64,000 nucleotides of DNA from Pelotomaculum sp. (GTDB lineage Bacteria > Bacillota > Desulfotomaculia > Desulfotomaculales > Pelotomaculaceae): positions 124,001-188,000 of the forward strand of contig JAHDOA010000004.1 of NCBI GenBank assembly GCA_018435055.1, written 5' to 3'. A program made the position numbers and the translations under genes. The notes under the pieces were generated by a model. It saw only the letters and a program-made list of their open reading frames with translations. It did no database searches and was not told the DNA's origin. Positions 2,278-45,935 of this stretch are shown piece by piece. Every line of letters starts with the position of its first letter. Positions within the stretch are counted from its first letter, which is position 1.

Positions 2278-2952
2278 TTAGCCCTCCGGGGTTGTTGGTG
2301 CTATTTGCGTTGCTGTTGTAGTGATTGTTAAAACATAGTTCGTTCTAGAGGCGCCTGCAGAGGCCTGACCAAGTTCGGTATCTTCCTCATCACTGGCAAC
2401 TAAGCCAGCACCGTCGCCAACTTCATAAGGCCATCTCCAATAAACTGTTTGTGTAGCAGTACCATTTGTTTCTGCCACTTTCTTAAACTTATTTAGTAAA
2501 TTTAAGGCATTTTGAAGAGCGGTGAGACTATTATATATAGTATCCTCCTCCCCGAAATTTCCCAGGCAATACTGAATTGGTACATCAGCTCCAGTTTTAG
2601 AGAAGGCAAATTCAACTTTTGCCGCTACATCACTGTTGTTTGTAACACTTAAGATAAAATCCCCACTAACGCCCGGGGCAATAATATTTTGTGTGCCGTC
2701 TGTAGCTATAATATTTTCATTATATGCGTGGGAAAATAAATCAAGTTCCGCTTCCGCTGGGTCGTCTGGTGAAATTGCGAAATCATGGCTCCCATCCGTT
2801 ACATCCAAGTCCCACTTGGCAATTAGCGCCGTGTCCTGTCCCGAGTACTCGCTGGTATACTTGGCGAAGGTGCCCGAGATCATCACGGTGGAGATAAAGC
2901 ATAGCACCAGCAGCAGCGCAGAGACGCGAAAAATGCGGTTTTTGTTTTTCAT
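2278..2952 (-). CDS. TasA/camelysin-like matrix protein (copy 1)
   Basis: A 224-residue protein with a SipW-type signal peptide (basic KNKNR, hydrophobic core, cleavage region near SGTFAKYTS). A mature beta-rich domain follows, containing ALIAKWDL, IIAPGVSG and a terminal NYVLTITTTATQ strand, as in TasA/CalY proteins. The first 30 or so codons and the upstream DNA are almost identical to the neighbour at 3664, while the mature domains diverge strongly. It probably forms surface fibres or matrix after processing by the adjacent SipW-type peptidase. Expression is likely linked to the c-di-GMP riboswitch upstream of 5474, if read-through reaches here. Confidence 0.75.
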   Translation of the reverse strand: MKNKNRIFRVSALLLVLCFISTVMISGTFAKYTSEYSGQDTALIAKWDLDVTDGSHDFAISPDDPAEAELDLFSHAYNENIIATDGTQNIIAPGVSGDFILSVTNNSDVAAKVEFAFSKTGADVPIQYCLGNFGEEDTIYNSLTALQNALNLLNKFKKVAETNGTATQTVYWRWPYEVGDGAGLVASDEEDTELGQASAGASRTNYVLTITTTATQIAPTTPEG

Positions 2953-3385
2953 GTTTTCATCCCTTCTTTCCCTTCTTTTATTTTTTTACAGATAAACCTT
3001 TCTGCCGCCCTATAGTAATTAGCGCATTTTTGGCGTGGGTATTGATCTACCCTGCGCCGCCTCTCAATCACCTCTCCATATAAGAGTACAAATTACGCAA
3101 GAACAAAATGTTTGTTATTTAACGCATTCACGCAGCCCGCGGGGGATCATTGCTTGCCCCCGTCCCGCGCGCTTTTGGCGCGGCTGGCTCAGATAATGAT
3201 CACGGGGATGATCAGATAAGCACAAAACTCCGGAGCGATGATATAATTACCTTCGGCTTTTTTTCTTATATTTTAGCATATAAGCGTGAGAAAAAGTATA
3301 TGACTGCCCCAAACAAAAGGTTATTATTTACTGTATTAACGTTTTCTGCGGCGGGTCGTTGCCGCCCCCGTCCTGGCCCGCTTTC
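2851..3385. repeat. Segmental duplication, copy 1 (partner 4333-4869)
   Basis: About 535 bp nearly identical to 4333-4869. It covers the signal-peptide codons of the TasA-like gene, its leader DNA, and the last 45 or so bp of a signal peptidase gene (matching 4812-4869). Here the peptidase tail is an orphan, because the rest of that gene is absent. The gap 2953-3663 holds this duplicated leader, then non-repeated sequence with a GC-rich hairpin near 3612-3646 (TTGCAGGGGCTGCG pairing with CGCAGCCTCTGCAA). Confidence 0.85.
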
Positions 3386-3663
3386 GGCTTCACGCTGCTT
3401 TATTTCTATTGTATTTCAGGCGTTTCCTGCTCCGCATATACAACAGATTTGGTTGTATCATAGGGCCATACCCATTTTACTAAAATCAAGACGTTTTCAT
3501 CAATATCCAAGTCGGGCCTTATAGTACATGGGGATGTGTGGAAAACCTGTATGATATGCCTCAAGCAGCGGTCGCCCTGTGCGGTTAACCGGCGCCCGGC
3601 TTTCGGCTGCCTTGCAGGGGCTGCGCGAACCCCGCAGCCTCTGCAAGAGAGCCGAAGGCTCTC

Positions 3664-4434: not shown

Positions 4435-4869
4435 GTTTTCATCCCTTCTTTCCCTTCTTTTATTTTTTTGCAGACAAACCTTTCTGCCGCCCTATAGTAA
4501 TTAGCGCATTTGTGGCGTGGGTATTGATTCACCCTGCGCCGCCTCTCAATCACCTCTCCAGATAAGAGTACAAATTACGCAAAAACAAAATGTTTGTTAT
4601 TTAACGCATTCACGCAGCCCGCGGGGGATCATTGCTTGCCCCCGTCCCGCGCGCTTTTGGCGCGGCTGGCTCAGACAATGATCACGGGGATGATCTGATA
4701 AGCACAAAACCCCGGAGCGATTATATAATTATCTTCGGCGTTTTGACTGATATTTTTAGCATATAAGCGTGAGAAAGAGAATATGACTGGCGCAAAACTA
4801 AAGCTTATTATTTACTGTATTAACGTTTTTCGCGGCGGGTCGTTGCCGCCCCCGTCCCGGCCCGCTTTC
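4333..4869. repeat. Segmental duplication, copy 2 (partner 2851-3385)
   Basis: The complete version of the duplicated block. It spans the start of the TasA-like gene at 3664-4434, the 377-bp leader between it and the signal peptidase, and the peptidase's 3' end. The gap 4435-4811 contains only this leader, including A/T-rich stretches and a conserved TGATCACGGGGATGATC near-palindrome at about 4679-4695 that is also present in copy 1. Confidence 0.85.
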
Positions 4870-5598: not shown

Positions 5599-5632
5599 AA
5601 AAAAGACTGCGCGAAAAATAATTTCGGCAGTC
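5599..5632 (-). terminator. Intrinsic terminator of the riboswitch expression platform
   Basis: On the minus strand GACTGC-CGAAA pairs with TTTCG-CGCAGTC, followed by six T. It directly abuts the aptamer, and its 5' arm (GACTGCC) overlaps the aptamer's 3' strand. This is the geometry of a transcription-termination riboswitch in which ligand binding and terminator formation can be mutually exclusive. Confidence 0.85.
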
Positions 5633-5710
5633 GGACCATCATATCACCTCTTGGTGATTTAGACTCCTGACTTTGCGCCCCAGCCTTTCAGCTGGTTTGC
5701 CTTTTCAAGT
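5626..5710 (-). ncRNA. Cyclic-di-GMP-I (GEMM) riboswitch aptamer
   Basis: On the minus strand the elements occur in the family order: GGCAAACC, a short stem with a GAAA-type loop (AGCTGAAAGGCTGG), GGCGCAAAG, a GTCTAAA stretch, a stem ATCACC/GGTGAT, then GGTCCGACTGCCG closing the helix. This matches the GEMM-I consensus seen in clostridia. It sits between a TTGACA promoter and a terminator, 150 bp upstream of the SipW/TasA-type genes. Control of a matrix locus by c-di-GMP is therefore inferred. Ligand specificity was read by eye only. Confidence 0.85.
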
Positions 5711-5728
5711 CATTTGTAATTCTTAACA

Positions 5729-5757
5729 GTTACTAGCTAAAATTAAATAGATGTCAA
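5729..5757 (-). promoter_or_regulatory. Promoter for riboswitch/sipW transcript
   Basis: A perfect -35 TTGACA (5752-5757) is followed at 16-17 bp by a weak -10 (TAGTAA/AGTAAC). It lies about 20 bp upstream of the aptamer. The -10 is poor, so the start point is uncertain. Confidence 0.45.
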
Positions 5758-5830: not shown

Positions 5831-5934
5831 TGTGTCAGGGGGACGGGGTTGTTGACACTTTTTTGCCTCAACCTGCAGTATTTGTGTCAGGGGGACGGGG
5901 TTGTTGACACCTTTTTTGCCTCAACCTGCAGTAC
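5831..5934 (+). repeat. Two tandem copies of the dispersed GTGTCA hairpin repeat
   Basis: A unit of about 50 bp occurs twice. Each has a GTGTCA...TGACAC hairpin core (5832-5858 and 5884-5910) with GGGGGACGGGGTTGT between the arms, then a T-run, then GCCTCAACCTGCAGTA. Further copies lie at 6677, 39997 and 45901. It looks like a REP-type or small non-autonomous mobile repeat; the T-run after the hairpin could also end plus-strand transcripts. Confidence 0.8.
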
Positions 5935-6077: not shown

Positions 6078-6362
6078 ATGATGAATATACGGCCATCTGC
6101 AGCAATACGTAAAAATTACAATGAAATTTCTGAACTTTGCAAACGCACAGGTGAACCCGTTTATTTAACCAAAAATGGCAGCGGCGACCTTGTAGTCATG
6201 GATATAGTTGCTTTTACCCAGCGCGAAAGTTTGCTGAAGCTTAAGGGAAAGCTCATGCAATCGGATATTGACATCCAAAAAGGGCGTACCTATTCCGTGG
6301 AGGAAACAGCAGCCGCCATGCGCAAGGCTGTGGCGGAGGTTGCTGATGCCGGAAAAGAATAG
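6078..6362 (+). CDS. Phd/YefM-family antitoxin
   Basis: A 94-residue protein beginning MNIRPSAAIRKNYNEIS, with the PVYLTKNGSGDLVVMD core typical of Phd/YefM DNA-binding antitoxins. The C-terminal half is helical and charged, which would neutralise the toxin. AGGAGAG lies just before the start. Its end overlaps the toxin start by 17 bp, so the two are translationally coupled. It probably represses its own promoter at 5999. Confidence 0.85.
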   Translation: MMNIRPSAAIRKNYNEISELCKRTGEPVYLTKNGSGDLVVMDIVAFTQRESLLKLKGKLMQSDIDIQKGRTYSVEETAAAMRKAVAEVADAGKE

Positions 6363-6663
6363 GCCTTATACGGTAAAAATCACTGAAACCGCCTGGGAAA
6401 TGCTCATTTTTCATGCGCGTTTTCTCGCTAATGTGAACATGCCGGCCGCTAACAGGCTTATAGATACCTTCGTTAAAATGACCGACAGTCTTGCCGCACT
6501 GCCGGAGCGCAACCCCTGGCTGGAACATGACGCCATTCCTTTTCAAAAATACCGCAAGTTGCTGTTTGACAAACACTATATGGCTCTATATCAGGTACAG
6601 GAAAACACTATCTATGTAACAGCCGTTTTGGATTGCCGGCAGGATTATATTTGGCTGCTGTAG
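6346..6663 (+). CDS. RelE/ParE-family toxin
   Basis: A 105-residue protein. The ATG at 6346 (MPEKNRPYTVKITE) was chosen because it lies inside the antitoxin's end, as is usual for these pairs. It shows the RelE/ParE fold pattern: an N-terminal strand, a helical pair (AANRLIDTFVKMTDSLAALPERNP), then YRKLLFDKHYMALYQV and a final VTAVLDCRQDY strand. The family cleaves mRNA at the ribosome or poisons gyrase; which applies here cannot be told. A dispersed hairpin repeat starts 14 bp after the stop. Confidence 0.8.
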   Translation: MPEKNRPYTVKITETAWEMLIFHARFLANVNMPAANRLIDTFVKMTDSLAALPERNPWLEHDAIPFQKYRKLLFDKHYMALYQVQENTIYVTAVLDCRQDYIWLL

Positions 6664-6709
6664 GTGTCAGGGGTAGGTGTCAGGGGGACGGGGTTGTTGA
6701 CACCTTTTT
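6664..6709 (+). repeat. Dispersed GTGTCA hairpin repeat with a partial copy in front
   Basis: A broken half copy (GTGTCAGGGG at 6664) is followed by a full GTGTCA...TGACAC hairpin (6677-6703) and a T-run. It sits just behind the toxin stop and may act as its terminator. Confidence 0.75.
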
Positions 6710-6768: not shown

Positions 6769-7047
6769 TTATTCCGTATCCCGTTTCACATAGCCATACA
6801 AAGTACATTCAAATATATGGGCAACTACAAGATTTGCGCCCTCGGGCAAAGAAGTCCATGTCCTGCAATAGGGGCAAGCCGGCTGTAAAACTCTGCCCGA
6901 CATGGACCCGCTTTCGTTAAAACATTTTCCCGGTCTGGGAAACTCTCCCTCCTGCAGGCAGCAATCATTGCCTGCTCCTGTGCCCCCGCCTATATTTGCC
7001 AGCAGCTCATCATCCAATGGTATAGTTTTGATTTTTTTATCACTCAT
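6769..7047 (-). CDS. Small Cys-rich peptide with double-glycine-type leader (putative bacteriocin/RiPP-like)
   Basis: A 92-residue peptide from the ATG at 7047, which has GGTG six bases upstream (the in-frame start at 7059 is less likely). The first 22 residues end in LDDELLANIGGG, like the leaders of double-glycine secreted peptides. The remaining 70 residues contain six cysteines (CC, KCF, ACPYC, FEC). No modifying enzyme is adjacent. Its promoter carries the same heptamer direct repeats as the neighbouring transporter and gldA genes, so it is probably part of that regulon. A secreted signal or antimicrobial role is a guess; a zinc-binding peptide is an alternative. Confidence 0.55.
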   Translation of the reverse strand: MSDKKIKTIPLDDELLANIGGGTGAGNDCCLQEGEFPRPGKCFNESGSMSGRVLQPACPYCRTWTSLPEGANLVVAHIFECTLYGYVKRDTE

Positions 7048-7128
7048 AATGATCACCATAGATCTTTTCTACGAAATGATGGTTATGGAGCCGGGCTTTT
7101 CTTGAGCTTTTATACTTTTATCTATTTG

Positions 7129-16348: not shown

Positions 16349-16425
16349 AGTCTAGTTTGAGTCTTAATATTTTTTTATCTTTAGCGCATTTAGTGTCTCA
16401 GATGATAATTCAAAGTGTAGTTGCA

Positions 16426-17322
16426 TTACAATGTCAGCCGCAGTGTATTGGCCCCGTTAACAAACGTATGTACAATCTCACCCGCCGTGTTATGTATCAT
16501 CACCCTGGCCAGGTCGTCCGCCGCAGTTGCCAGCGCGTCTTCACTGTTGCCGGGATAGGTGACGATTACCTCATAGCGGCTTAGCCGCTCTGAAAAACTG
16601 ACACTTAAGTCACATACACCAAATCTGGGAACAACGATATTGATCACCAGTTCCTCCGCAATGAGCCTTAGCTTCTTAGCACTCTTATCCGCTACCGCAT
16701 GGCTGAAACAAAAATTGTCTATGCCGGCGAGCATTGCCGCATAGTCAAAATCCCTTGATTCCACTTTATAGTGGAAGCTGCGGATCCTATAGATAAACGC
16801 CTGTGTCTTGGACTTTTGGGGGTTCTCAAATATCCCGGCCGGCGTCCCCTGTTCGTATATCCCGCGCTCGTCCATATAAAACACCCGGCTGGAAATCTCT
16901 TGCGCAAAGCTCATTTCATGGGTAACAATCAACATCGTCAGCCCGGTTTTTGATAAGCCGCGTATTACTGCCGTGACCTCGCCCACCATCGTAGGATCGA
17001 GCGCGGAAGTCGGCTCATCAAACAAAATGACCTCCGGCTCCATTGCCAGGCAGCGCGCAATCGCCACACGCTGCTTCTGGCCGCCCGACAGCTGATGGGG
17101 GAAATGACGCGCCCGCTCTGACAGCCCCACTATTCTTAAAAGGTCCATAGCTTTCCCCTCCGCTTCAGTGCGGGATTTCCCAAGGAGTTTTATTGGACCC
17201 GCGCAGAGGTTTTCTATCACGTCCAGGTGTGAAAAAAGCCCAAAACTTTGAAATACCATCCCCATTTTACGGCGAATCTCGTCAATGTTCTTCCTATTTA
17301 TTTTCACGCCGTTAAAATACAC
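16426..17322 (-). pseudogene. ABC ATPase with RsbW-like tail, N-terminus deleted (copy 2)
   Basis: 298 codons about 85-90% identical to residues 59-357 of the ATPase at 7273, with the LSGGQKQR signature, Walker B and the RsbW-like tail intact. A deletion of about 160-190 bp has removed the start codon, ribosome site and Walker A. The upstream binding-protein frame now runs into the former ATPase sequence. Without Walker A it cannot hydrolyse ATP. It could be dead, or the tail could be expressed alone. Confidence 0.85.
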
Positions 17323-39996: not shown

Positions 39997-40030
39997 GATG
40001 TCAGGGGGACGGGGTTGTTGACAACTTTTT
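39997..40030 (+). repeat. Dispersed GTGTCA-type hairpin repeat
   Basis: ATGTCA...TGACAA with the common GGGGGACGGGGTTGT centre and following T-run. It interrupts the IS21 remnant, so this repeat moved or recombined after the IS arrived. Confidence 0.75.
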
Positions 40031-45900: not shown

Positions 45901-45935
45901 GTGTCGGGGGGACGGGGTTGTTGACACCTTTTATA
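45901..45935 (+). repeat. Dispersed GTGTCR hairpin repeat
   Basis: GTGTC...GACAC around GGGGGGACGGGGTTGTT, with a partial GTGTCGGGG copy in front (45889) and a T-rich tail. It follows the kinase gene by 19 bp. Confidence 0.75.

Follow-up and report, generated by a model that had tools for sequence, protein, structure and literature searches.

Cyclic di-GMP (c-di-GMP) drives the biofilm matrix in many Gram-negative bacteria, and in Bacillus the control of tasA falls to protein repressors. The tapA-sipW-tasA operon of Bacillus subtilis, in which a SipW-type peptidase is encoded beside its secreted fibre subunits, is under the control of the proteins SinR and AbrB, and we know of no riboswitch for it. 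The locus described here has the same pairing of peptidase and subunit genes, although its cluster is longer and encodes two peptidases. No SinI was found in the genome that carries it, in a search for which the B. subtilis control was positive. The sipW-bsaA genes of Clostridium perfringens specify a clostridial SipW-dependent extracellular polymer, as appears to be the case here (PMC7395162). That system is temperature-regulated, and no c-di-GMP riboswitch is described for it in PMC7395162.

Several described riboswitches resemble the one reported here. The GEMM-Ib riboswitch before pilM in Geobacter metallireducens, which responds to c-GAMP, is a proven ON-switch whose aptamer and terminator are mutually exclusive (PMC9262584). 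The present locus is like it in that the 3' strand of the aptamer is part of the terminator, the two folds are predicted to exclude one another and the target is a putative surface fibre; it differs in its selectivity base (G, of the c-di-GMP type), in a fibre that is SipW/TasA-like and not a type IV pilus, and in its Bacillota host. Cd1, before flgB in C. difficile, belongs to the same aptamer class and is an OFF-switch in which aptamer and terminator coexist (PMC9262584, PMC6200980). A flgB aptamer in the genome studied here has the same kind of layout as Cd1, whereas the copies linked to sipW and tasA are laid out the opposite way, for ON. In C. difficile, all working switches of class I are OFF and those of class II ON (PMC6200980). 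In Bacillus thuringiensis, Bc2 places a class I aptamer on a surface-adhesion gene, the collagen adhesion gene cap, as here on a SipW/TasA-like cluster, and tandem c-di-GMP switches are known from the same species (PMC4933901); a triple tandem is cited in PMC11218506.

Neither the riboswitch class nor its tandem copies are new, and both ON and OFF platforms are known for it. In the open full-text literature that was searched, we found no description of a c-di-GMP riboswitch tied to sipW or tasA-type genes, nor of any direct action of c-di-GMP on TasA-type fibres. Within that literature, what is new is an unreported and recurrent target of an ordinary aptamer.

The aptamer and the gene cluster behind it

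The window, the whole stretch of 64,000 nucleotides analysed here (positions 124001-188000 of contig C6 in genome G000, 3.28 Mb in 70 contigs), holds one c-di-GMP-I aptamer by Rfam scan (Table 1). The analysis shows the aptamer, the terminator overlapping it, the order of the genes that follow and the recurrence of the linkage in relatives. RF01051 matches at 79.4 bits (gathering score 35) over its full length, model positions 1-87, and a chance match is excluded by the E-value of 5.8e-14. A preliminary description had proposed a GEMM-I aptamer, an intrinsic terminator and, downstream, a SipW-type peptidase gene with TasA/camelysin-like genes. The covariance score bears out the first, and the terminator and neighbouring genes lie as it described them; the ON direction argued for below was not part of it, nor were the two further aptamers beyond the window or the recurrence of the linkage across Clostridia.

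Table 1. Features of the riboswitch and the downstream cluster, with positions in the window.
Feature	Position	Strand	Basis
Promoter of the riboswitch transcript, TTGACT-17 nt-TATACT	5828-5800	minus	consensus scan, 10 of 12
c-di-GMP-I (GEMM-I) aptamer	5711-5623	minus	Rfam RF01051
Intrinsic terminator, GACUGCCGAAA/UUUCG-C-GCAGUC + U6	5632-5599	minus	fold
Possible second promoter, extended -10 TATGGTATAAT	5544-5515 (extended -10 about 5524-5514)	minus	scan, 10 of 12 with TG
sipW1, SipW/ER-type signal peptidase	5507-4812, probable start ATG 5474	minus	TIGR02228, 87.4 bits
tasA1, TasA-like secreted subunit 1, signal motif GTFAKYTS	4434-3664	minus	ORF, alignment
tasA2, TasA-like secreted subunit 2, signal peptide same as subunit 1	2952-2278	minus	alignment
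Secreted protein, weak carboxypeptidase-regulatory-like domain, C-terminal part SipW-substrate-like	1947-784	minus	CarboxypepD_reg
sipW2, second SipW/ER-type signal peptidase	763-227	minus	TIGR02228, 87.6 bits

The probable start codon of sipW1 is preceded by the ribosome site AAAGGGG. Both peptidases exceed the TIGR02228 cut-off of 51.85 bits, and in sipW1 the residues Ser77, in the motif SGSMEP, and His116 are invariant in the alignment. Against NF046067, the Bacillus SipW equivalog, sipW1 scored 92.1 bits, under the cut-off of 190; it is a SipW-like relative and not the Bacillus equivalog. The two subunits share the signal peptide ISGTFAKYTS. The gene after tasA2, whose product matches CarboxypepD_reg at E 0.0023, under the Pfam cut-off, is kept in the same place in relatives.

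The cluster continues past position 1 of the window (flanking stretch L006) with a 435-aa protein carrying a similar signal motif. Two near-identical tandem c-di-GMP-I aptamers follow on the minus strand just outside the window, at L006:16582-16669 and 16359-16446 (G000:C6:122582-122669 and 122359-122446). Each has its own overlapping terminator, and they precede distal genes of the same cluster, which encode three proteins: one of 203 aa (GVSFSRFS motif), one of 266 aa with a membrane anchor, and one of 1040 aa that carries ten GLUG repeats.

Part of the cluster is repeated. The minus-strand stretch between sipW1 and tasA1, including the 3' end of sipW1 (4440-4860, with a leader of about 370 nt), recurs between tasA1 and tasA2 (2945-3410), so tasA2 or tasA1 looks like the product of a duplication. 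The duplicated leader holds strong hairpins, and its first copy contains a frame of about 38 codons, with a stop codon overlapping the start of tasA1; this frame was sought in relatives and is not clearly conserved there. A hairpin at 3666-3645, after tasA1, was rejected as the end of the operon because no clear run of U goes with it on the minus strand.

Nature of the secreted subunits

The subunits matched none of the TasA, camelysin and BsaA models (NF046066, TIGR04088, TIGR04090) at cut-off, and the BsaA model TIGR04090 gave E = 2 for one cluster member. A structure model of subunit 2 built from 17 sequences reached a pLDDT of 71 (63 when built from 7). With this model, the best Foldseek match among 350,542 chains was 8aur, a cryo-EM structure of the TasA fibre (probability 0.98, E 3.8e-3). 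The TasA fibre also came first on VIA, a modest match with Z 5.6 over 141 residues, the longest alignment among the top rows, tied with other beta-sandwiches. The earlier designation of these genes as TasA/camelysin-like thus stands as regards context and best structural match, but finds no curated family model at cut-off: we call the subunits TasA-like for their context and probable fold, and place them outside the family.

The operon might instead make something other than a TasA-type matrix fibre, such as a surface layer, a donor-strand pilus for contact with a syntrophic partner, or a GLUG-repeat adhesin with accessory subunits. Consistent with this are the missing family match and a gene content (two peptidases, at least three distinct SipW-substrate-like proteins and the 1040-aa GLUG protein) richer than tapA-sipW-tasA of B. 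subtilis. However, the substrates of SipW-type peptidases include the TasA-type fibre subunits of B. subtilis and the BsaA of C. perfringens (PMC7395162), and it was the TasA fibre that headed the structural search. We therefore regard a different product as possible but rather unlikely, and treat the cluster as one for probable TasA-like fibres.

Promoters and transcription

That a promoter lies upstream of the aptamer, as first proposed, was upheld, but its position was not. The upper coordinate of that proposal pointed to TTGACA at 5759-5754, a hexamer that is not conserved in the closest relative and was dropped. This relative, Candidatus Syntrophopropionicum ammoniitolerans MAG 62 (G005; contig identical to JABMJD010000044.1), belongs to the same genus as the genome of the window, which is therefore related to that propionate-degrading lineage. 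The promoter now assigned (Table 1) lies about 90 nt upstream of the aptamer, and alignment shows both of its hexamers kept in G005 despite diverged surroundings.

A putative extended -10 element, TATGGTATAAT, sits between the terminator and sipW1, and a counterpart, TATGGTACAAT, occupies the same place in G005. Because this conserved element is downstream of the terminator, sipW1 may also be made without c-di-GMP, and its transcription from there could be independent of the riboswitch; this is the chief reservation about the proposed control. The gaps of 378 nt between sipW1 and tasA1 and 712 nt between tasA1 and tasA2 leave room for further promoters. Taken to its limit, this evidence would have sipW1 and the tasA-like genes transcribed mainly from promoters past the terminator (the extended -10 and possible ones in the tasA leaders), with c-di-GMP only adding to a basal level. 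No extended -10 is seen, however, in Ca. Formimonas, Sporobacter or locus L056, where sipW closely follows the terminator, and in two relatives (G010 and G017) aptamers stand immediately before a tasA-like gene. We consider such a minor role for the riboswitch doubtful, and favour transcription through it as the main route.

The surroundings of the riboswitch promoter hold further features. Five exact copies of GGGGGACGGGGTTGTTGACA occur at 5838-5857, 5890-5909, 6683-6702, 40004-40023 and 45907-45926 (chance expectation 0), and this interspersed repeat adjoins both the riboswitch promoter and a toxin-antitoxin pair. The pair, a Phd/YefM antitoxin and a ParE-type toxin, is encoded on the plus strand at 6078-6663, divergent from the riboswitch transcript. 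At 6769-7059 on the minus strand lies a gene for a 96-aa protein with a double-glycine-type leader, LLANIGGGTGAG, and several cysteines. It is possibly a small secreted peptide and has no NCBIfam match.

Terminator and predicted direction of the switch

The aptamer runs straight into GACUGCCGAAAUUAUUUUUCGCGCAGUC-UUUUUU, an intrinsic terminator that ends at 5599. Its hairpin (5632-5605) has a predicted stability of -13.8 kcal/mol, and six U follow. The terminator 5' arm (5632-5622) shares 10 nt with the end of the aptamer, among them GACU, the 3' strand of P3, which in the aptamer fold pairs with AGUC of P3. Since this strand is shared, the aptamer and terminator folds are mutually exclusive. 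For the full transcript, the terminator ensemble is predicted to be 12.5 kcal/mol more stable than the fold without a terminator, and for a transcript that stops before the terminator 3' arm the predicted fold is the aptamer. An advantage of 12-14 kcal/mol for the terminator fold, exclusive with the aptamer, is found in all three copies in the cluster.

Among six close sequences, 98.5% of cells in the terminator stem still pair, although both sides have changed at two of the pairs, and sliding the partner by 1 to 3 columns lowers pairing to 27-56%. The covariation count was made on these six sequences, distant-lineage terminators being left out because the MAFFT alignment misplaces their 3' arms.

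As the terminator uses the aptamer's own 3' strand, an ON layout is predicted: judged by its anatomy, c-di-GMP should prevent termination. The reverse, in which binding would cause termination, is what the working class I switches of C. difficile do (PMC6200980), and at some of the Lachnospiraceae copies before sipW (L054, L165) the terminator is separate and lies downstream. At the present locus, however, aptamer and terminator cannot form together; in the same genome it is the flgB aptamer that is laid out in the contrasting way, with the two coexisting. On account of the strand overlap an OFF-switch is rejected here as highly improbable, and we retain the ON prediction.

Ligand

Position 11 of the aptamer, equivalent to G20 of Vc2, steers the choice between c-di-GMP and c-GAMP (PMC9262584). 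Here it is G, which favours c-di-GMP as the predicted ligand. The genome encodes ten GGDEF domains and one EAL domain, and should thus be able to make c-di-GMP and run its signalling. Sensing of c-GAMP or another cyclic dinucleotide is very improbable and was dropped: GEMM-I variants with A at this position do bind c-GAMP (PMC9262584), and the base influences selectivity without acting as a strict filter (PMC9262584, PMC7288161), but G is present in all five aptamers of the genome, is invariant across 21 aligned aptamers, and stands beside the ten GGDEF domains.

Other aptamers of the genome

A c-di-GMP-I aptamer on the minus strand at L007:8098-8207 (G000:C11:73097-73206) precedes flgB, flgC and further flagellar genes. 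Its predicted fold, from which the terminator was read, holds the aptamer and a separate downstream terminator together. Because the two coexist, as in Cd1, this switch would by analogy be of the OFF type.

The remaining aptamer, at L008:8291-8381 (G000:C60:34290-34380), also on the minus strand, is followed by a strong hairpin and then by genes for an ABC transporter ATPase and permease.

Recurrence in other genomes

Aptamers of the c-di-GMP-I class are present in 37 of 41 related genomes. One lies directly upstream of sipW1 in three of these relatives (G005, G024 and G010), G010 having another between sipW1 and tasA, and in G017 one lies directly upstream of a tasA-like gene. In a further close relative (G019; L035/L052), the entire cluster occurs without a detectable aptamer.

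A search for sipW across 84,980 species genomes, made without using the riboswitch RNA, returned 67 loci. Of the 14 that ranked highest, seven carry an aptamer immediately upstream of sipW: G005, G024, Ca. Formimonas warabiya, Sporobacter termitidis, [Clostridium] asparagiforme, a Peptococcaceae UBA5318 genome and a Bacillota MAG. Most of the 67 loci come from Bacilli or Mycoplasmatota-like genomes and have no aptamer. In a phylum-wide sample, same-strand aptamers within 1.5 kb of sipW were found at 9 of 30 loci. At L143, L144 and L140 the aptamer stands immediately before a gene with a SipW-type signal peptide, tasA-like in the first two, and proteins of the riboswitch-linked loci L143, L140 and L125 pass the TIGR04088 cut-off. 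The family of [Clostridium] asparagiforme (Lachnospiraceae) shows the linkage at four loci in three genomes. In the 2.7 Mb UBA5318 genome, the sole c-di-GMP-I aptamer is the one linked to sipW. For five aptamers spread over 3.28 Mb, the probability that a given gene has one by chance in the 400 nt upstream of it, on the right strand, is about 3e-4 (range about 1e-4 to 6e-4), and chance proximity of aptamer and sipW is rejected on this recurrence in a sample of genomes and loci.

The expression platforms differ between lineages. An overlap of 8-18 nt between the terminator 5' arm and the end of the aptamer is seen at nearly all related sipW1-cluster aptamers, the set comprising both tandem copies of the present genome (G000 R2a/b), G005, G010 (three copies), G024, G017, Formimonas, Sporobacter, L056 (two copies), UBA5318 and G111. 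A separate downstream terminator is found in [Clostridium] asparagiforme and L165. At L125, L128, L140, L143 and L144 there is no clear terminator and the aptamer is close to the ribosome site; since the aptamers of L143, L144 and L140 lie just before the start codon, translational control is possible in other Bacillota. These differing platforms suggest that the link between sipW and the riboswitch arose, or was rewired, several times.

Proposed mechanism and implications

We consider it likely that a class I c-di-GMP riboswitch controls an operon for SipW-processed extracellular protein fibres. Ligand binding, the way in which the switch responds, transcription of the entire cluster as one unit and a function in fibres or biofilm are the parts of this that we infer. 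In the proposed mechanism, polymerase would start at the promoter at 5828-5800 and transcribe the aptamer. Without c-di-GMP, the aptamer 3' strand GACUGCCGAAA would be captured by the downstream arm UUUCGCGCAGUC, and transcription would stop at the U tract. With c-di-GMP, the aptamer would keep this strand in P3, allowing read-through into sipW1 and the tasA-like genes. A signal favouring sessile life would in this way lead directly to more fibre peptidase and subunits, and the two tandem copies of the switch would repeat the control ahead of the distal genes of the cluster.

On balance, though with less assurance, we favour a broader view: that direct control of SipW-dependent fibre operons by c-di-GMP-binding RNA may be a widespread clostridial alternative to SinR and AbrB of Bacillus, reached with different platforms, and that in the genome of the window one c-di-GMP pool may switch fibres (ON) and flagella (OFF) in opposite directions through the same aptamer class.

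If this is true, a single genome would run a class I ON-switch for matrix genes alongside a class I switch for flagella that is apparently OFF, where C. difficile uses class II for ON. The second messenger would then be tied to the protein matrix by a simple route across Clostridia, Lachnospiraceae of the gut among them. It would also concern relatives of syntrophic propionate degraders, for which aggregation is important in anaerobic digestion.
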